This document shows, piece after piece, positions 6,851 through 58,683 of a DNA stretch of 64,000 bases. Position 1 is the first letter of the stretch; every line of letters begins with the position of its first letter. A model generated the notes under the pieces. That model was not told the DNA's origin. It worked only from the letters and a program-made list of their open reading frames with translations, and searched no databases. The stretch is from positions 3,788,001-3,852,000 of the forward strand of contig OV121092.1 of NCBI GenBank assembly GCA_921293015.1, in the 5' to 3' direction. This DNA comes from Phorcus lineatus (taxonomy: Eukaryota > Mollusca > Gastropoda > Trochida > Trochidae). Made by a program: the position numbers and the translations under genes.

Positions 6851-7018
6851 GAAATAAAGTTCGCTCTACCCCAATGTGTTTTGTAATAAAGTATAGTTTT
6901 CCCCTGAACTATTATAACGTTATGGCACTAGGACCCGTCCTTGTGCTTTAACTATAATAGTTCAGGGCAAAACTATACTTTATTACAAAACACATTGTGG
7001 TAGAGCGAACTTTATTTC
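6851..7018. mobile_element. 168-bp foldback MITE with arms of about 67 bp
   Basis: The left arm (6851-6917) is the near-perfect reverse complement of the right arm (6951-7018), differing at only a few bases; the loop is about 33 bp. Arms begin gaaataaagttcgctctac. Immediately outside are ttagaaat (6843-6850) and ttataaat (7019-7026), matching at 7 of 8 positions, a possible 8-bp target duplication as made by hAT-type transposases. There is no coding capacity. The RNA would fold into a long hairpin. Confidence 0.88.
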
Positions 7019-12009: not shown

Positions 12010-12256
12010 TGGGATTTAACGCAGCTTTCAAGAGTATTTCTCTTATATTGCGGCTGCTAGTATTAGTGCAGGGAGAAAGCCCAAAACACCATAGTGTCTG
12101 TGCAATGCGGTGAAACCTGCGAGCACCAGCTCGAACTAGTATGGGTGGTACTGCACTGAAATCAGTGTATCATTGCACCCATCTCACTGCGTGTAGAACA
12201 GTTCTCTACTGCAAACAAAGTTACCAAGCCTCTGGCGGGATTCGAACCACAGCCCA
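12010..12256 (-). mobile_element. tRNA-derived SINE, copy 1 (minus)
   Basis: On the minus strand it starts with a B-box-like GGTTCGAATCCCGCC (12235-12250), runs through ttcagtgcagtac, ctcgcaggtttcaccgc, gggctttctccctgca, actagcagccgc and ttgaaagc, and ends near gcgttaaatccc. The same string of blocks recurs on the plus strand at 47.28 and 56.84 kb. The B box suggests a tRNA-derived RNA polymerase III head; the A box is missing, so this copy is 5'-truncated. Confidence 0.8.
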
Positions 12257-27010: not shown

Positions 27011-28157
27011 TCAAGGATGAATCTTGATTAGAATAATGATTTTCTATGCAACATTTGGCCATTGCCTTTGCTGTAAGAGAGCTTCCTTCTAAACGTGATA
27101 GCATGATGAAAGAACTCGATGGTGTTGACACTCAAGGGCTGATGCTGGTTTGAATTTGTCAAGTGCTATATTGTTTAAAACGTCTGATTCTAATAAAGTT
27201 GATTGATCTCCTTTATGTTACTTCTTCTTAAACGTACCAAGACAAGACATTTCATACTGTAGGTTGTTTCTGTAAACATCCAGTAACATTTGTTATGCTT
27301 TCTTAGAACAATTGATAAACGAAAACTCATCAAAAATGTGTTTATGAATTAAAATGTTTACGTGATGTGTAAAGTAAATAAATAAATATCGCATTCTTTA
27401 CTTCACAAGTCAATGTGTAATGTTAACAATTCTTCTTATTATGTTTTTTAGGACATACTTGCTGTGAGTATGTTCAGTCAGCAGAATGCCTACAAGAATA
27501 GAGACATCTTTCTAAGATTTCCTTGGCAGGATTAAAATTTCATCTGATATTTTTAGTATCTGTTAAAAAATTGAAACCATTTTAAGCCTGTTGCTTTTAG
27601 AAATAAAATAACTAAAGATTTCATGATGAATCAGACAGAACACCAATTGCTATTTCCAAAAATTTAATGACATGATAACATGTAACAATAGGAAGAAGAC
27701 CATGTTAGTATTTTAGCCATTTTATTAAAGAATTACAGTATTCAAGACCATCAAAACTTTGCTTACATTACTTACTTACTATTGAAAATTGAATACCATT
27801 TTGTTTACAAGCACTGATTTTAATTTACGAAGACTATATATGATCAAACATTCCACTTTGCATAAGCTACAATGAGCTTAATTCGATGTCTAAGGACTAC
27901 GAGAGGGTGGGGGGACTATGGGGGTTGCAATATTGTGGCTTGTATGATGAAAAATGTATCATACCACATTGCCGATAATTGCTTTTCTTCTTATCAGATA
28001 TCTTTAACAAAAGTGTAACTTGCAGATAGTTTTATTCCAGGATTTGTTTACAGATCTTTCTCTACATTTTTCATATATGTATATTACGAATATAATAAGA
28101 GAAGGTAACATATCATGATTGATTGTTAAGATAATGCATATTTTGAGGAGATGACAT
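27011..28157. other. Non-coding stretch left of the foldback element
   Basis: The first ~80 bp continue the Y2-Y3 similarity ('tcaaggatgaatcttgatta' here, 48488 in the third copy). Beyond that I see no gene or repeat. Confidence 0.45.
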
Positions 28158-28320
28158 TGTTCCGTGCAATCTGGGAATGATCACAATCTGCAGATTGTTC
28201 GCTCACAATCTGCAGATTGTTCGAACAATCTAGGAATTTTTTTCATTCCTAGATTGTTTAAACAATCTGCAGATTGTGAGACCTGTACACTCTGGGAATG
28301 ATCACAATCTGGGAATTTGC
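28158..28320 (+). repeat. Left terminal inverted repeat of the foldback element
   Basis: Contains three copies of the perfect 16-bp palindrome ACAATCTGCAGATTGT (28183-28198, 28205-28220, 28262-28277), plus a hairpin with CAATCTAGGAAT and ATTCCTAGATTG arms (28226-28257). Matches the right terminus in inverse orientation. Confidence 0.88.
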
Positions 28321-28430
28321 TTGTTTGTAGAATATCTTGCATTATAAAATGAGAATTGTCTACTTTATTTAGGTTTTTCTTTGTGTATGCATCCAAATGA
28401 TGGAGAATAGTAAAACTGTTGTCAAGTCAT

Positions 28431-29400
28431 AGATTGTGACAGGTTCATAGCTCGCATATATATCAAACTGACGGAGTATAGGGATCCAATCCTAGATTGT
28501 GAAGGGCTTACAGATCGACATTATATCAAACTGAGAGGGTATAGGGGTCGATTCTCAGATTGTGAAGGGCTCATTTCTCACCTATATGTCAAACTGAGGG
28601 AGTATTGGGATCTATTCTCAGATTGTGATGGCTCATAGCTCACCTTTATTTAAACTGAGGGAGTATAGGGATCTATTCTCAGATTGTGAAAGGCTCACAG
28701 CTAACCTTTATTTAAACTGAGAGGGTATAGCAGTCGATTCTCAGATTGTGATGGGCTCATAGCTCGCCTATAAACCAAACTGAGGGAGTATATGGGTCGA
28801 TTCCTAGATTGTGAAGGGCTCACCGCTTGCCTTTAACTCAAACTGACGGAGTGTAAGGGTCGATTCTCAGATTGTGAAGGGCTTACATCTCACCTTTTTT
28901 TAAACTGAGAGAAAATAGAAGTCGATTCTCAGATTGTGAAGGGCTCAGATATCGTCATTATGTCAAACTGAGGGAGTATAGGGATGGATTCCTAGATTGT
29001 GAAGGGCTCATAGCGCGTCTATATGTTAAACTGAGGGAGTATAGGGATCTATTCTTAGATTGTGAAGGGCTCATAGCCCGCCTATATGTCAAACTTATGG
29101 TGTATATGGGTCGATTCTCAGATTGTGAAGGGCTCATAGCTCGCGTTAATGTCCAACTGTCAGAGTACAGGGATCTATTCTCAGATTGTGAAGGCTCATA
29201 GCTCACCTTTTTTTAAACTGGGAGGAAATAGAAGTCGATTCTCAGATTGTGAAGGGCTCAGATATCGTCATTATGTGAAACTGAGGGAGAATAGGGATCG
29301 ATTCCTAGGTTGTGAAGGGCATTGCGCTTGTCGTTGTGTATTATATAGCTAGTAGAGGGTTCAATTCACACATTGTGAATATGTGGAGGTAGAAAACTAA
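28431..29400 (+). repeat. Left array of the 63-bp repeat, about 16 copies
   Basis: The anchor 'agattgtg' starts at 28431, 28494, 28557, 28620, 28681, 28743, 28806, 28869, 28931, 28994, 29057, 29120, 29183, 29244 and 29307, with a degenerate last copy at 29370. Spacing is 61-63 bp. A unit reads agattgtgaagggctcatag, then ctcgcctatatgtcaaactg, then agggagtatagggatcgatt plus a few bases. Copies alternate between 'tctcag' and 'cctag' just before the anchor. Confidence 0.95.
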
Positions 29401-30485
29401 ATTTGTATATCGATTCTGCGATTTTCAAATTTTCATTAATCATAGTTTGCGGTAACCCGAATAACACTGTTTGGAGGGTGTTACTATTTATGTAGAAGTA
29501 AGAATTATGGTTTAAACATATCTTTATTTCCGAAAATGAAACAAAGATTGGCAAAAAGCTATAATAGCTTATTTGAACGCCGCTCTTTTACATGATACAT
29601 AAAGCTGGAAACAAACACAAGAAAATGTGAAAATAAAAAAGCAAAGAAACAATGTATAATGTTAACATGTAGTTACGTAATAGGATTTGAAATAGTGCCT
29701 GGTATATGCCTAGTATTGAAGTCTGCTGCAGCCTCCGCACGAAACAAAGTAAAGTGAAAATAGTTATAGATAATTGCAGAATGTCAAGAAAATGTATTCC
29801 TCGTGTTGATAAAATAGTGTAATGATTCAAGAATATTGCTGTTTTCCAGGATAGTCAGATTATCGTTGCCGTATAAAACTGTAAGAATTATTTCTTATAT
29901 GTGTAAAAGGTTTGCATATGAAAATCATTAATAACAATTCACTATGAAAAGTTAATTTAATATCTGAAAAGTTAATTACACTGAAATTTAATTCTTCATT
30001 CTCGCTTATTTGACTTAAGTTAGGTTAATTGACCATTATTACTATCTGTATTTACACAAAACACTATAATCTCCTTTGGTATGAATTACTTGCATAGACA
30101 CTTACACTTACAAGGTACAATTATATTAAGCATTGTCTACCTTTGCATTTGGTAGAGATTTAATAAAAGAGCTATAAAAATCGGTTGGTATCATTTATGA
30201 AATGATATACAGATATTATGAGGGATTCGTTAGCACTCTGTGACAAGGATTTGTCGCCGCTCAAGGTAGATTTTAATGTTATATCGTTTTTAAAAAAGTA
30301 TTGATCGGAATCTATAATATAGTTGGCATTTAAAGAAGTAATGAAAAGGATCCTCCCGAATGTTCCCACAAGAACAGGCAGGATTTACTGACAACAATAA
30401 GTGGACTTGCTTTGCGTAGTATATTTTCAATATGATGCTGCCATTTTCCATCTTCATTTTCCATTTTCATCTGTGTAAACATGCT
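29401..30485. other. Core of the foldback element, no gene recognised
   Basis: About 1.1 kb of ordinary AT-rich sequence between the opposing arrays. Short minus-strand ORFs (29366-29554, 29588-29830, 30172-30369) have no transposase motifs. It may be captured host sequence or the remains of a lost transposase region. Confidence 0.55.
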
Positions 30486-31300
30486 TCTATACTCCCTTAA
30501 TTTGACGTAAAGACGACCTATGAGCCCTTCACAATCTGTGAATCGACTCTTATACCCTCTCAGTTTGATAAATAGGCAAGCTATGAGCCCTTCACAATCT
30601 GAGAATTGACCCCTATACTCCTCTCAGTTTATCATAAAGCCGATCTGGGAGCCCTTCATAATCTGAGAATCGACTGCTATACCCTCTCAGTTTAGATAAA
30701 GATGAGCTGTGAGCCCTTAACAATCTGGGAATTGATCCCTATACACCGTCAGTTTGACATATAGGCGAGTTGTGAGCCCTTCACAATCTAGGAATCGGCC
30801 CCTATATCCCTCGGTTTGACATAAAGACGAGCTATGAGCCCGTCACAATCTGAGAATTGACTGCCATACCCTCTCAGTTTAAATAAAGGTGAGCTGTGAG
30901 CCCTTCACAATCTGGGAATCAACCCCTATACTCCCTCAGTTTGACATATAAGTGAGATGTGAGCCATTTACAATCTGAGAATTGACCCCTTTATTCTGTC
31001 AGTTTAAATAAAGGTGAGCTATGAGCCCTTCACAATCTAGGAATCGGCCCCTTTACTGCGTCAGTTTGATTTATAGGCGAACTGTGAGCCCGTCACAATC
31101 TAAGAATCGACTGCTATACCCTCTCAGTTTAAATAAAGGTGAGCTATGAGCCCTTCACAATCTAGGAATCAACCCATACGCCCCCTAAATTTGACATAAA
31201 GGCGAGCTGAGAGTCCTTCACAATCTGGGAATCGGCCCCCATACCCCCTCATTTTGAGAAAGAGACAAGCTGATTGCTCATCACAATCTAGGAATCGATC
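30486..31300 (-). repeat. Right array of the 63-bp repeat, about 13 copies, inverted
   Basis: The reverse-complement anchor 'acaatct' occurs at 30531, 30594, 30658 (variant), 30720, 30783, 30845, 30907, 30970, 31032, 31094, 31157, 31220 and 31282, spacing 62-64 bp. The monomer is the same as in the left array in opposite orientation. The copy number differs from the left arm, as expected if arrays expand by unequal exchange or slippage. Confidence 0.95.
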
Positions 31301-31370
31301 CTTATACTTGCTAAATAGAAAAACCTTAATAAGCTAGATAATTCCCATTTTATAATGATGAAAATACTAC

Positions 31371-31530
31371 TAAAACACAAATTACCAGATTGTGATCATT
31401 CCCAGATTGTTCAGGTCGCACAATCTGCAGATTGTTTACACAATCAAGGAATCCCTAGATTGTGAGCAAACAATCTGCAGATTGTTCGAACAATCTGCAG
31501 ATTGTGATATACCCCAGATTGTTCGTAACA
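31371..31530 (-). repeat. Right terminal inverted repeat of the foldback element
   Basis: ACAATCTGCAGATTGT occurs at 31420-31435, 31470-31485 and 31490-31505. The last two are joined by TTCGAA-type sequence, making a perfect 36-bp palindrome at 31470-31505. Aligned inversely with 28158-28320, the arm differs by scattered substitutions and small indels. Confidence 0.9.
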
Positions 31531-31709
31531 ACATCATGATTAATGTATCCAAAATCTTGAAACAGAATATGAAACCAAAATAGAAATAAAATGATTTTAA
31601 TATTTGTCTTACTTGTCATTGTCTTCGTTCTTTTAAAAACCATCAACAAACAATTTCCCTTACCTCAAAGAGATATTACTGAGCTATTGTATGGACATAC
31701 CTGGCAACG

Positions 31710-38331: not shown

Positions 38332-38950
38332 TTACAATTTTGTATTTTGAATGTGTTGTTTTACTTCTAAATCATTGGGGATTTAAAGGGATAGATTTAA
38401 AGGGCACAAAGAAGAAAGATAACACATAGGTACTAATTCCGTCATTACACACATCACAGGCATGTAGTATAGGAGTACATTCTTGCAAATTATTCATTTT
38501 CAATCTCAATTTGACTGTTTGATTCAGCTGCTTTTTGGACATCAGCAATTTATCAAAATCATAGTATTAAGAGAGAGCATCATCATAAATAACATCACCA
38601 TACACTACACACCACAACAACCATCAATTATCATCCTCAAAGCTGTCATGTTGCGGGGCCTTGATGTCGACCAACTCTCTAGGAAGAGCGCACTGGCTCT
38701 AGCTTCCCATCCACAAGAGTCGAACTATGACTCTCATTAGCAACAAGAACAACAGGTATTGGAACAGAGATGTATTCCATAGAGCCACCTGCTAATTGAA
38801 ATGCATTGTATGATACTCTAGGCTTTTGATGGTATCATGATGGTGTCCATGTTACATTGTTTGACTCATCTTCACAGCAATAGTCATTCAGTTGCAGACA
38901 GCAAACTTAATCAACATTTTTTATGTCAGGTCCACCATACCAACAACAAA

Positions 38951-39098
38951 ACTGAAATCCTTATAGGGCTTTTATAAGTGATATGTAACTGAAATCCTTA
39001 TAGGGCTTTTATAAGTGATATGTAACTGAAATCCTTATAGGGCTTTTATAAGTGATATGTAACTGAAATCCTTATAGGGCTTTTATAAGTGATATGTA
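38951..39098 (+). repeat. 37-bp minisatellite, 4 identical copies
   Basis: Units start at 38951, 38988, 39025 and 39062 and are identical. Each contains the short palindrome cttata...tataag around GGGCTTT. Identity between units implies recent expansion or homogenisation. Confidence 0.96.
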
Positions 39099-45049: not shown

Positions 45050-47280
45050 TTGAATTTCAAATCGGGCCTACATTTAGTTTACTGTAGCTACAATCATTGA
45101 ATAGATTTTCAAAGCTCCACAAAAAACAAAAGTTAGCAAACATAAAGATTAGTGTAATTTGATTAAAAATTGAACTACGTTTCTTGACAATAAAATGAAC
45201 ACAAACCCACAATACATAACTGGGTATGGTTTTATCGTTGGCAATACTTTGTATCAATTTGTATGTCCAAACAAACCAAATTTACACATGTTAAATAACA
45301 AATAAAATATACATTAAACATTATTTCTAAATACAATTATGGAAAAATGCAAAAGATGAATCTCGTTTATGAAGACAAGGCGACATTGTAATGATACAAA
45401 GTGGTTGCTTGTAGGCTAATACCTAATAAATATAATTGTTTACTAGTCATTTTCTAAATCAAAAACTAATGACCAGGATTATGAGGTACCATAAGTAATC
45501 AGTCTAATAATTGTTCCAAAAGTAGTAACTAGAATGTGTTTGTCTACACGAAATAGTTAATAATGACTCTTTATAGATAAAATGGAGTAATAATAGTAAC
45601 GTAAAGAGATAAGGAAGTCTCTGATGTAGATTCATGACCGTATTGTAAACAACCAGTGCCTGATTTCAAGCAATTTCTCATGACTCCAGGGTAATATTGT
45701 TTCGATATTGACACCTATTTGATTGGGAGGTTAAGGGTCAGCTCCTTACGTCCTCCATCTAGAGAGAATCTGTTTCTGCACTGCACATAACTCATCCCAA
45801 TAACTCGAGGTCTTTTGAGATATGAATGAACACCCGGAGACAATAGGATCAAACATGTGCTCATTGTGGTTACAATTTGGTAAACACAGGTTGCTTGGTA
45901 AACTTATTACAAAATTTATATCAAAGAACTTTACATATATATTTCATTAACCAAACGGTCCTCAACAGTATGGCTATTTTGATATTATACATTCATATGG
46001 TCGTCTTTCTGGAGTATGGTGATTATAATTTTCATATACCTTTCACGAAAATAATCACAGTTGCTTTTGAATAAAATTAAATTTTCACAATCACTTTGCG
46101 TGACACATTTCCCATAAAGTTATATTTATATCCTCAGCAAATGCTTGTAAAGCATTCGATAGAAGTTTTTACACAACATCTCCACATTCAGAAACAATTG
46201 CCCTTGCATTTGATGTAATCCTCTTCTATCTAAAACCAAGCGTTGATGATAAAATGATTAGAGCTGTGTCCAATGATACATGGTCATCTCACCAAAATAA
46301 CCAGATAATGGTGTGGAAAAACTTGAGGAAATAACAGTTGTTGTGAAGAAAAGCCTTTAGCCGGAGACAGTTGATCATCAAATTCTCTCTCATTTTCTTT
46401 ATCAAATTAAAATAACAACCAAAATGTCAGGGTAAGATATCAACTAACATTTTTCAAACAGCCAAATTTAGACAAAACGATCTACTGCTTCTGTCAGTTT
46501 TAATGCCAATGGATATATAATTTGTCTTATATTCTGGCTAATCCGAGGGACGTTCGGGTACATTAAATAGATGTTGAACCTCACATCTTCAAAGAGTTAT
46601 TAGAATGTTGTCAAGAATTCATTGCGCATTTCCAAGAAATGCTGTTCCATACACCTCAGAAATGTCAATAGTGTAATCATATTAGATTTGAAACACTTTG
46701 AGCTTAGCTTCAAGCACTAAATCTAAACCATTTTAAATGAGTTTACAATAGAAACATACAAGTTATATCATTGGGAATGTTCATTAAAGTGATAAACAGG
46801 CCATAGAATGGTTCTTTGAATACATTCATATCTTTAATGGACTAATCATATATCTATTCTCAGCTCCCTAGATTTAATATTCCCTATTGTAGATCAAGTC
46901 TTTTGTTTCCTTTGGTATTTGTGAGTTATAACTAAATATTCCTAAAACTTCCAAAGTGAACTAATGAAACCCACGTAGATATCTGTACCAAATTATAATA
47001 TTTCAATTGACAGCCTTATCAGCTTCTGTCATACAAAATAGGTATGCTTACGTAGGCTTTGATCCCATAACGGCTGGTTTCTAGTTCTCTTGTCGTATGT
47101 GATACTAATGTGTCTGTGTTAGGGACGTAGATAGTTATTTTAGTTCGTAACATCATATCATTATCATAACCATAGTCACAGTTATGGTATGTGAGGCCTC
47201 ATTTAAAAGCTGCGAAGATAATGACAAAGTAAAATTTTCCATTGTATCATCTACATAGTCTTCATTCTCTCAACTCACAA

Positions 47281-47432
47281 CCCATGGTTCGCTAGTTCCA
47301 GCCGATGCTCGCAGGTTTCACCGCAATGCATAGCCACAATGGTGTTGCGGGCTTTCTCCCTGCAATAATACTAGCAGCCGCGATATAAGTGAAATAATCT
47401 TGAAAGCGGCCTTAAACACCAGCTCGCCTCAC
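47281..47432 (+). mobile_element. SINE copy 2 (plus), flanked by ~50-bp direct repeats
   Basis: Contains the family blocks ctcgcaggtttcaccgcaat, gcgggctttctccctgcaa, actagcagccgcgatataag and cttgaaagcggccttaaaca. The A and B boxes are missing. A ~52-bp sequence just left (47229-47280) is repeated just right (47433-47484), about 88-90% identical by eye. This is far longer than a normal target-site duplication. Confidence 0.82.
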
Positions 47433-48149: not shown

Positions 48150-48487
48150 CTAAGATGACGATGTTTGCTCTAAGTTAATTGATGTCTTATTAGTATCATC
48201 TTTGACAGTTTGATTCTACTATTTATAACAGATTTGGCTCCGAGGTAAACAGGCTGTGCTTGACATCAGATAATACATCATAAGCATTTAAAGTAAGATT
48301 CAATGAATGACACATGTGAAATCGATAGAGTAGGGGTTAACTAATAACATTATAAACTAGTCAAGTGCCAAGCAGAAAGTTGTCACATTACGCATGGCCT
48401 GGGTAATATTTCCTAATGAGTAATGAGATTTGGAGACTGACAGATGGATCCAGTAGGTTAAGGGTGTACTGGTAATATGTTTACATG
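48150..48487 (+). repeat. Conserved ~330-bp distal Y block, copy 3
   Basis: Third copy of the block described at 22168. It ends 'ggttaagggtgtactggtaa'. Confidence 0.72.
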
Positions 48488-49169
48488 TCAAGAATGAATC
48501 TTGAATAGAATAATAATCAGTCCATGCAACCTTTGGCCATGTTCTTGCTGTGATAGTATATATTTTATTTATATTAATTTCATTGTTAACATGAAGATTG
48601 TTTATTTAAAAATTCAAATTACAATTTTTTTAAATAAATAAAAATATATTGTTTTCAGATTAAAGAATTTTCAAATATGTGCCCATCTTTATCATGCTAT
48701 TACTCATATTTTTGGGATGGTTAGTTTATTGAATGTAAGTGGTAGACCTGTGGAGGAGCTATCTATGAATCTATGAATAATGTCAATAGTTTTTATTGTG
48801 AACAAACTGACCACTCTTCAGCATTTAGGTGGAAATTACTCTCTACATTTCTACAGACTAATTACTGTCAACTAATTGTGGCTTTTCTCGTCATTCTCTG
48901 GTATGAAATGTTGCCCTAATCAAGTACAAGGGGGAACTACCCACATTTAATCTTCATTGTACAGACTGGATTAACACCAAGAGCTTCAAGTAATTTCCTT
49001 GCTCTATAATTAAAGACCTCAGAGTTGAAGGTCGAAGCACATACTTCTCTGCATTCATTACTTATAATGTATATTGCTCTACATTCAAGTCAACGATAAG
49101 ATAATCCAAAACATTGAAAAAAGATTTGATAACATTTCAAATAGGTCGCAGATTTTAACATTATTCAGA

Positions 49170-52994: not shown

Positions 52995-54485
52995 AACTCT
53001 TCAAAAAAAGAAACTTGACATTCATGCAAAATTGATTTTTTCGAAACGGGTCAATTGTTTTCATGATACATACCTGTAATTTAAAGAAAGGCTTGCTCAA
53101 AAGTGTAAATTTACCAAAAACAATGGCCCAAAAAGTTTACGTTGTGTTCAGGGACGAAAACGAGCGATTCGTCCAAATGCATTTTCTACCAAAGCACGTG
53201 CAGCATGGGATCATGAAGGTTTACATGCAGACACGTCTGCTTTAGGGTTTAAAAAGCCATATCAGCCGCTGTTCATTCAGACTACAGCGACCTGAAGAAT
53301 GCCAAGACTGAACAGAGCGCAACAACTTCATTGGCAGACTGCAAGCAGGAGCGACGCAGCGAGATGTTGCAACACACTTTGGCGTGTCCAGACAGACAAT
53401 CTCTTCATTGTGGACCCGTTTCAACACCCGACACAGCGTTGATGATAGGCCAAGGTCAGGCAGACCAAGGGTGACTACTCGGGCCCAAGATCGGTACATC
53501 CGACTGCTCCACCTTCGGGAACGCACCAGGAGAGCAACGTCAACAACAACGCAGATACCAGGCCTGCGTCGAATTTCCGACCAAACGGTACGCAACAGGC
53601 TGAGAGAGGCTGGACTTTTTCCACGACGACCGGTTCGACGTCTTGTTTTAACGCAACGTCATCTGGCGGAACGTCTCCAGTGGTGTCAACAGAGGATGAG
53701 ATGGGCACGTGCAAGGTGGAAAACCGTTCTCTTCACTGATGAGTCCCGTTTTCTGCTTTGACGAAGTGATGGAAAAGCACGTGTCTACCGACGTCGTGGA
53801 GAACGTTATGCTACCAACTGTGTTCAAGAGGTTGTCCCATTTGGAGGTGGGAGTGTCATGGTGTGGGCCAGGATTCGTCACGGTGTTAGGACACCCCTTG
53901 TGCATGTTGTGGGTAACCTCACAGGAGTACGGTATAGGGACTTGATCCTACAGCCTTTCGTTATTCCTCACGTCAACGTCCATGGTGGTCTCTTTCAGCA
54001 GGACAATGCTCGACCACATGTTGCACGTGTTTGTCAAGACTTTTTACAGCGTAACAATGTCCAGACATTGCCATGGCCAGCCAGGTCACCAGATTTGTCA
54101 CCAATTGAGCATCTCTGGGACGAACTGGACGAGTGCGTGGTAGGAATCCACCACCCAAAACACTTCCAGGACTTCTTGCAGCACTTCAGCACGAATGGCA
54201 GAACCTTCCACAGGCTGTGATTGACAACTTGATTGCAACCATGGGTCGTCGGTGCCAAGCAATAATCAATGCCAATGGTGGCCATACCCGATACTGACAT
54301 TTGTGCACCCCTGTGATGTTGAAACATTTGTGCACCTGTGCATTTCAAGATCATGCTTATTCTGAATAAAATTTACTGAACAGAGATCTTCAAACAGCGT
54401 TTTAGTTTTCATTTCAATGTTGAATCTGTGGTCTTTATATTGAACTTTGAAAGTCAGTGTCAAGTTTCTTTTTTTTGGAAGAGTT
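52995..54485 (+). mobile_element. Complete Tc1-type transposon (1491 bp), disabled
   Basis: Terminal inverted repeats of about 27 bp: left aactcttcaaaaaaagaaac continuing ttgaca (52995-53020), right its reverse complement (54458-54485), differing by one A. TA dinucleotides stand immediately outside (52993-52994, 54486-54487), the target duplication of the Tc1/mariner superfamily. It encloses one broken transposase. Size and layout are typical. Confidence 0.92.
53299..54297 (+). pseudogene. Tc1-family transposase, broken by two frameshifts and one stop
   Basis: Start MPRLNRAQ at 53299, then a frameshift near 53318 into the main frame: helix-turn-helix (RLQAG, QRDVATHFGVSRQTI), the GRPR AT-hook-like motif (about 53455), first catalytic Asp in FTDESRF (about 53740). 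One in-frame TGA at 53759-53761 follows, after which the same frame continues with RVYRRRGERY, GGGSVMVWARI, second Asp in QDNARPH and catalytic Glu in SPIEHLWDEL. Spacing between these two is 34 residues, the DD34E signature of Tc1. A second frameshift near 54175 moves the tail (VIDNLIATMGRRC...GGHTRY) to another frame, ending at 54295-54297. Length would be about 330 residues, normal for the family. The three lesions make it inactive, although the ends remain good substrates. Confidence 0.94.
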
Positions 54486-56837: not shown

Positions 56838-57037
56838 CATGATTGAAACCGTTCGGTTTTGGATCAAGTGGTCCGTGGTTCGAATCCCACCAGGGGCTCA
56901 AAGCTTTGACTGCAGTCAGGTTTTGGGTTCAATGCAACACTCAATTTCAGCGCAGTACAATCCATGGTGTGCGAGTTTCAAACGATGATCGCAGGTTTCA
57001 CCGCAATGCATAGCAACAATACAGTTGCAGGCTTTCT
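56838..57037 (+). mobile_element. SINE copy 3 (plus), with tRNA-like B box
   Basis: The head contains GTGGTTCGAATCCCACC (56876-56892), a good B box, then ttcagcgcagtacaatcc, atcgcaggtttcaccgcaat and gcaggctttctc, the same order as copies 1 and 2. The 3' third is missing after 57037. Together the three copies define a family of at least 300 bp. Confidence 0.8.
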
Positions 57038-58683
57038 CAAAACGCTTCGCTTTGGTTAAGTTACCTGTTCTTTTCTAGACACATCTGGGAGTTCTGGGAA
57101 CGCCTTGAGCTTCTTGGGGGTTCTACATTTGCATAAGCTATAATTCTACTGCATCAATGTTTTCCCACTTATGGAATTCCTATATATATCAAGCAGTTTC
57201 ATCCAAGAATTGTCATGTAGACAAGACTCACCTTACAAACTGCTGTTGGACGAAGAAATTTGGTGAAAATACTTTTAGCTTGTCTCATTTGATATTGAAC
57301 TTTTAATTTGCATGACCTTCATGTTGTAATTTTAACCTCTTGTTTTTTTGAATTGTTATAATTATACATTATTTTTTATTTTATGTTGATGGTTTGATTG
57401 AGAATATTCACACTTGAGAGGAGGGATCCAATGAATAAACCAAATGTAATCTCATAACATTGGTTACAATTTTCAGAGGTCTAGGATGGGTTGATACATC
57501 AAATTCAACACTATATATGTCTGTTATACCACATACCTGCAATGAACCAAATTTAAGAATTGTTTATTAATCATACAATTGAGGTAAGAGACGATGGTGT
57601 TATCGATATCGATTACAAAGTGTAAAGGAATCACAACTGTTATCAAGATGTTGTAATAATTACTCATCTAACACATCATTTGAAGAAGCTTACCAAGTGT
57701 CTCTTACTGGAATGTGCGAAAATAACAGACATGATTTCAAATAAACCAAGTACGGAAAATAAGTGTTTGGCATAATTCATGCATGAATCGATGTAACAGA
57801 TGATAGTGTTATCGGTAATATAGGTTGTCATCACATTTACAAAGTGTAAATGAATCACTTCTGTTATAAACAAGTAGTACTGATTACTTATGGATATTCA
57901 ACACGTGAGTTGAACTACAACACCATCTGATAATGAACAATTGATAAGTACGAATAAGATGACAAAACAATGTCTTTCAAATCATTTTAGTTCTAGAAGG
58001 AACAATTTGTAGAAAAACAGGCGTTTTAAAAATTTAAATTCTGTAAAGCAAACTGTCATTGAAGAATAATTCCAAATTGAATTTTCATCAAAGATAGGAT
58101 ATTTTGATGGTTGCTGGCCTGGTCATTGTATGTGTCATAGAATATCCGCTTACTTTGTGTTAAAGGAAGTAAAATTTTGTTTGACAAATGAAAAAAGTTT
58201 TATACTTCTCCTCCTTGTGTAGATTATGACATCAACGTTGCTAGGATACATTATTAAAATGTTTCTCTTTTACGCAATAATACGTCATTACATGCGATTT
58301 CAACAACCATGCATCTAGTGTATAAGCAAATAGCATACAATTTGACAATCCTTTTGGTAATAGATCTGTCTGGCATCCAGTCTATGCTGACGTTTCTAAG
58401 AGGATCAACAGCTCAGTGTATATCTATGAGCAGTGGTTTGACAGTTCGATTTTCCCTGTTCCTTGATATAAGCTTTTCTTTTGAAAGATTATATTGGCAT
58501 GATAGCTGTGTACATCTTGCATCACTAAATCTAATTCACCTTCATTTGTCAGAAAGCTTGCGTTGTGTTTATCAGTCTTGTTCAAACCGTGGTTAACAAA
58601 GACGTTATAATTTCATTATATTTGAGTAAAACTGAATCATTTCCCAACACAGGGTAATGTTCAATCCAAATAATTACTTCACA
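57038..58683. other. Non-coding stretch, presumed intron
   Basis: Contains a weaker juxtaposed acceptor/donor on the minus strand at 57531-57545 (TTCATTGCAG/GTATGT) with a poor pyrimidine tract. The ORF at 58309-58596 (plus) has no support. Confidence 0.4.

Follow-up and report, generated by a model that had tools for sequence, protein, structure and literature searches.

The foldback elements FB of Drosophila and TU of sea urchin possess arms made of short tandem repeats. Most of the foldback elements named in the available text of two reports are assigned to either the Mutator or the P superfamily, although exceptions occur (PMC4079207, PMC4168063). Tetris, according to the same partial text, was assigned to Mutator by its authors (PMC4079207). 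In Galileo, the THAP binding sites sit in the tandem repeats (available text of PMC3688188), while for D. willistoni the accessible sections describe tandem repeats in one Galileo copy only (PMC3688188, PMC4168063). For Ginger2 transposons, the part of the original description at hand gives a 4-bp target site duplication (TSD), an RTATAY target, TGTNR termini and terminal inverted repeats (TIRs) of 50–180 bp (Bao et al. 2010, PMC2836005). This Ginger2 paper uses neither tandem nor satellite nor palindrom as a word (PMC2836005).

Here, we analyzed a window of 64,000 nucleotides from the gastropod Phorcus lineatus (contig OV121092.1), in which positions are counted from the first letter. Positions 28158–31530 of the window are occupied by a complete foldback transposon with the ends TGTTCCG...CGTAACA, which displays the defining structure of such elements, namely long inverted tandem-repeat arms around a variable core. 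Its parts are the following.

28154–28157, unstranded: left target site duplication ACAT
28158–28400, plus strand: left terminus with the TGTTCCG end, tandem palindromes ACAATCTGCAGATTGT, paired half-sites and an AT-rich spacer
28183, 28205 and 28262: positions of the left-terminus palindromes ACAATCTGCAGATTGT
28431–29379, plus strand: left satellite array of the 63-bp monomer, 16 anchors
29380–30486, unstranded: core, which varies among copies and has no ORF of at least 150 aa
30487–31307, minus strand: right satellite array, inverted, 13 anchors
31310–31530, minus strand: right terminus with spacer, half-sites, palindromes at 31420, 31470 and 31490, and the CGTAACA end
31531–31534, unstranded: right target site duplication ACAT

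The element starts with TGTTCCGTGCAATCTGGG at 28158 and ends with CCCAGATTGTTCGTAACA at 31530. Tandem Repeats Finder reported the 63-bp array at 28431–29320 (14.2 copies) and the inverted array at 30487–31307 (13.1 copies), and the 16 left and 13 right anchors follow each other at a spacing of 61–64 bp. When up to two mismatches were allowed, the palindrome ACAATCTGCAGATTGT gave six matches in the window, all of them exact and all within the two termini, compared with a mean of 0.06 matches in 100 shuffles. The left terminus folded as DNA reached a z of −9, and a search of Rfam at gathering thresholds returned no match. The inverted homology is continuous from the terminus through the spacer into the array, amounting to 85% across a 136-bp terminus piece and, within the arrays, to 77% across a stretch of at most 305 bp. 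A preliminary description of this DNA had proposed two facing arrays of about 16 and 13 copies, a core and inverted palindromic termini, and all of these were recovered where it had placed them; its outer boundaries are exact to the base, as ACAT is found on both sides and the same ends recur genome-wide. Its reading of the locus as one foldback element and not two chance arrays is borne out by the homology through terminus, spacer and array together with the dispersed copies that carry TSDs. As it had also suggested, the number of array copies differs between the arms, and it differs between element copies as well.

The surroundings of the element contain diverged duplicated segments, about 67–80% alike, at 18.0–27.0 kb, 32.6–34.9 kb and 45.3–51.5 kb of the window, and the duplicate at 48.5 kb is without about 5.4 kb that comprises the foldback and its flanks. 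The paralogous segment near 48480–48740, which is without the element, was considered as a clean empty site within the window and rejected, because approximately 1 kb of flanking DNA to either side is missing from it as well. In addition, the window holds Tc1/mariner-like transposase domains in a pair of neighbouring stop-to-stop frames (53312–54220, plus strand), a 168-bp near-palindrome with 91% self-complementarity that is possibly another foldback or a MITE (6851–7018), a 37-bp tandem repeat in four perfect copies (38950–39098), and a dispersed repeat of 82–125 bp at 12015–12139, 47277–47416 and 56957–57038, the main pairs of which are 84–88% alike.

In the genome to which the window belongs (958 Mb, 74 contigs), which appears animal-like in its transposons and composition, the 18-base terminus occurs 640 times exactly and the 33-base terminal pattern 916 times with at most two mismatches, while the reversed control of either gave 0. 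The search with the element ends, which had been suggested as a check, thus recovered these ends at several hundred sites rather than in one isolated copy. Copies were sampled around the best left-terminus matches (20 and then 15 stretches), which yielded 22 complete copies of 2.5 to 9.4 kb, the window one included; owing to this choice, the 22 lean to young copies with intact left ends. Outside this set are L036 and L039, which have a left end without a right end within about 9.6 kb, as well as L009 and the second element of L018. Three of the copies, L029, L030 and L032, are each 6329 bp long and lie at different places, and over 6329 positions L030 differs from L029 at 2 and L032 at 1. Judged from this near-identity of sequence, the foldback family has been active very recently. 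The left terminus is mostly conserved, without gaps, across the 22 copies, which were themselves picked by the left end. Similarity between the left and the right terminus is about 80%, whereas the left end of the window element is 96–97% and its right end 92–97% alike to those of other copies. The ends therefore match across copies better than they match each other, indicating that left and right ends are distinct. Inward-facing terminus pairs only about 0.14 to 1.1 kb apart also occur among the termini listed, and two of these close pairs contain a monomer match. Pattern scans for the paired palindromes in viral and prokaryote contigs gave 0 and 0. Among the open-access papers listed by literature searches, none described this element or any foldback of Ginger type, and a text search of open-access papers left the monomer letters unmatched, while a search with palindrome and monomer letters matched 10 papers, all through one 12-mer only.

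The alignment of copies with their flanks, also recommended in advance, defined the ends and revealed a 4-bp target duplication, which is exact in 20 of the 22 complete copies. The exceptions are L010, with TCTA/CTGT (last base changed or lost), and L031, with AAGA/AACA. The consensus of the insertion sites, R-T-G-[T-R-T-A]-Y-A-C, is a palindrome centred on the duplication. The motif T-R-NNNN-Y-A, which was picked after viewing the sites, surrounds the TSD at 18 of 20 sites compared with a window background of 2.8%, and the exact RTATAY is present at 5 of the 20. RTATA precedes 114 of the 640 exact termini and the scrambled RATAT only 2, the two ends of an insertion being counted separately, while about 4 of 640 would be expected for each from the window composition. 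With respect to the TGTNR rule, the right end TGTTA conforms and the left end TGTTC departs. CCGG or CCGT/ACGG, the Ginger1 target, is found in none of the 20 foldback TSDs.

The core behaves as cargo space, often with LINE pieces. Pieces of the window core are 90–94% alike to core pieces of L043 and L041, and its last third resembles L024 and L011. Non-LTR retrotransposon pieces were detected in 19 of the 22 complete copies; at the same threshold, no such piece was detected in L022, L026 or the window copy. Many LINE pieces lie at the same place in related copies, suggesting that they are derived from one insertion. Three further LINE insertions with duplications of 14–16 bp are situated at different points of one core type (L038:3159-6320, L035 and L034), and one nested LINE carries a 1053-aa ORF with RVT_1 and endonuclease domains. 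Since these duplicated insertion points differ, site-specific LINE targeting of the core was rejected, and ordinary insertion is more likely. Eleven ORFs of at least 150 aa were found in 8 of the 22 copies, the other 14 being without any. Of these ORFs, nine are matches to the L038 LINE protein, the one in L011 runs through an array, and the remaining one, of 189 aa in L034, has no Pfam match. No remnant of a Ginger2 transposase was detected in the 22 copies with a search up to an E of 10, and a recognisable H2C2/DDE integrase-like transposase is encoded in none of them.

For the analysis of the arms, monomers were found without an anchor, and 866 full ones were retained from 1005 matches in the 22 copies, three of which are near-identical. 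Among the 63 windows of the monomer, AGATTGTGA ranks first as the most conserved 9-mer, with a conservation of 0.984 compared with 0.872 outside the 16-base motif; for the window element alone, the values are 0.987 and 0.855 (26/28 monomer matches). Within AGATTGTGA, AGATTGT equals one arm of the terminal palindrome ACAATCTGCAGATTGT. The monomer spacing over 842 steps is 63 in 544 and 62 in 151. In a test of the arms with 218 monomers from 7 of the 22 copies, the nearest relative of a monomer in another element belonged to the same arm in 84%, compared with 49% after shuffling. Left-arm and right-arm monomers thus group apart, suggesting that each arm is largely its own array. Close copies differ in their arrays by 63, 125–127, 188, 496–498, 565 or 1004 bases, so that near-monomer multiples dominate, together with steps of 222–223 and a few short ones of 14–20; L031 aligned poorly in this comparison, and in L029 the left array has a period of 8 monomers.

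A 25-base word of the monomer has 789 matches in the genome. Among the first 100 of these matches listed, 71 are no more than 10 kb away from one of the exact termini listed, and the remaining 29 may be parts of copies with mismatched termini. By the same measure with a slightly shorter terminus list, 69 of 100 monomer places were near a terminus, compared with 1% of random places. The preliminary description had named monomers that mainly form long one-directional satellites as the contrary case, which was not seen, given this proximity to termini and a longest cluster of 11 kb among the matches listed.

We propose that the element is a non-autonomous foldback DNA transposon, which is probably moved in trans by a Ginger2-type, that is, retroviral-integrase-like, transposase. 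The foldback most likely works like a Ginger2 element. The Ginger2-type enzyme would move it by cut and paste, with the terminal palindromes as putative transposase binding sites. Each 63-bp monomer would hold one half-site, AGATTGT of AGATTGTGA, and the arms would be arrays of transposase half-sites. Since 63 bp corresponds to about six helical turns, these half-sites would share one DNA face. By analogy, the Galileo tandem repeats with their THAP binding sites may serve as a precedent for arms that are binding arrays. The arrays would grow and shrink by unequal exchange or slippage within one arm, and the observed changes, mostly near monomer multiples, are as expected of such processes. As a tentative suggestion, this may be the first foldback driven by a Ginger2 transposase, in which two inverted, separately evolving satellites would act as phased half-site arrays that let a gene-less element of at least 6 kb compete for the enzyme.

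Alternatively, the arrays could have no role and represent a selfish satellite that has grown by slippage in the arms of an ordinary inverted-repeat transposon. The wide variation of array length among copies and the repeat turnover mainly in monomer units agree with this explanation, and the termini only 0.14 to 1.1 kb apart suggest that long arrays are perhaps unneeded, unless these elements shrank after insertion. However, conservation within the monomer is highest at the half-site, the near-identical copies bear long arrays, and the 13-mer ACAATCTRGGAAT, common to termini and monomers, occurs 13 times in the element and 0 times in the rest of the window. Arrays without a role are a possible but less likely explanation.

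To return to the proposed Ginger2-type transposase, a 220-aa Ginger2-type probe was searched against the genome and gave matches of up to 79% identity, with frames of more than 500 aa open at several places. One of these places, L044, is an apparently intact transposon with a 542-aa ORF between inverted repeats starting TGTTACAG; its ends start with TGTTAC and contain tandem palindromes, and the flanking TSD is TATA. The L044 protein matched Pfam rve with an E of 3.7e-7 and 30.8 bits, just under the cut-off of 32.6, and the foamy-virus (PFV) integrase with an E of 5.3e-14. We take L044 to be a Ginger2-type transposon on the basis of these features. L044 and the foldback are alike in end design, TSD and target, while their palindrome letters differ, and the only match in a blastn comparison of the window element with L044 was one of 16 bases, outside the termini. 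RTATA precedes 24 of 28 exact L044 termini, and the foldback target is looser in this respect (18% compared with 86% of exact termini). The same probe gave ten equal-scoring matches at an exact spacing of 2393 bp on G000 contig C9:13846869-13868876, a series that forms a head-to-tail array of a transposase-bearing unit.

A relative with the same ends that encodes a transposase, which the preliminary description had recommended looking for, was sought in the 22 copies and at 20 places of Ginger2 type on contigs C1 and C2 and was not found. All of these 20 places are more than 30 kb from every exact terminus listed, and the nearest is 39 kb away, the listed termini being exact matches on contigs to C5. 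It may be that the autonomous partner is rare, that the assembly lacks it, or that it belongs to another family. As the copies encode no recognisable transposase and no such partner was detected, the element is not classed as a Ginger2 member.

Several observations speak against the Ginger2 reading, namely the lack of a transposase remnant, the lack of a Ginger2-type gene near the termini listed on C1 and C2, the left end TGTTC, the looser target, and the single 16-base match to L044. Instead, the mover of the same foldback could be an enzyme from a different superfamily that is able to leave 4-bp TSDs (integrase-like, Mutator-type, PHIS-type, Sola, Chapaev or Academ). The enzymes of Sola, Chapaev and Academ are able to leave 4-bp duplications, and TSD length alone does not determine the superfamily. 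According to the available text of PMC10045372, some IS481EU elements combine TGT..ACA ends with 4-bp TSDs, but IS481EU is described there from parabasalids. The same partial text gives TSDs of 4 to 10 bp for IS256/MuDR and of up to 4 bp for PHIS (PMC10045372). The wider IS256/MuDR range gives slightly less weight to Ginger2 and slightly more to another superfamily, and because of it the mismatch with the 8–10 bp of Tetris does not exclude every Mutator-type enzyme. That no autonomous partner was found in the copies or near the Ginger2-type places of C1 and C2 also fits another superfamily. On the other hand, the target of Ginger1 is CCGG or CCGT in the accessible part of its description (PMC2836005), and the RTATAY-like target, the TGTTA right end and the palindromic ends of the foldback agree with the resident Ginger2-type transposon, which makes an enzyme of another superfamily less likely. 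Finally, a pair of satellite arrays unrelated to each other, or an artefact of assembly, is exceedingly improbable and was rejected in view of the dispersed copies with target duplications, the same ends at hundreds of places, and the inward-facing terminus pairs.

A young family that has hundreds of termini and bears an integrase-like insertion signature would demonstrate independent origins of the foldback form. The family would also offer a natural test of whether tandem repeats in transposon arms are binding-site arrays, and its near-identical copies make bench testing direct. Satellite-like DNA is dispersed here by transposition, with both ends known. If the arms are half-site arrays, selection on transposition itself would produce and maintain this dispersed satellite DNA.

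Compared with known systems, the foldback shares with Ginger2/Tdd the 4-bp TSD, the RTATAY-like palindromic target, the TGTTA right end and the inverted repeats, while it differs by having no transposase, a left end TGTTC and satellite arms of a 63-bp monomer. In contrast to the Helentrons of oyster, it has inverted arms, TIRs and a 4-bp TSD. The oyster Helentrons that carry satellite-like repeats (PMC7492417) share with it the scattering of short satellite-like arrays by a mobile element. Tetris of Drosophila virilis, as far as described in the text at hand, is likewise a non-autonomous foldback whose TIRs contain tandem repeats, in which the repeat and the outer TIR share a stretch, but it has a TSD of 8–10 bp, repeats of about 220 bp and three complete copies, and its repeats also make kb-size satellite arrays (PMC4079207). 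Galileo of the P superfamily differs by its TSD of 7–8 bp and its GTANTAC target, but likewise possesses long, internally repetitive TIRs and a palindromic target (available text of PMC3688188, PMC4168063). The likeness to FB/Galileo that had been proposed beforehand therefore does not extend to the TSD, which is 4 bp here compared with 7–8 bp in Galileo, but it does hold in design.
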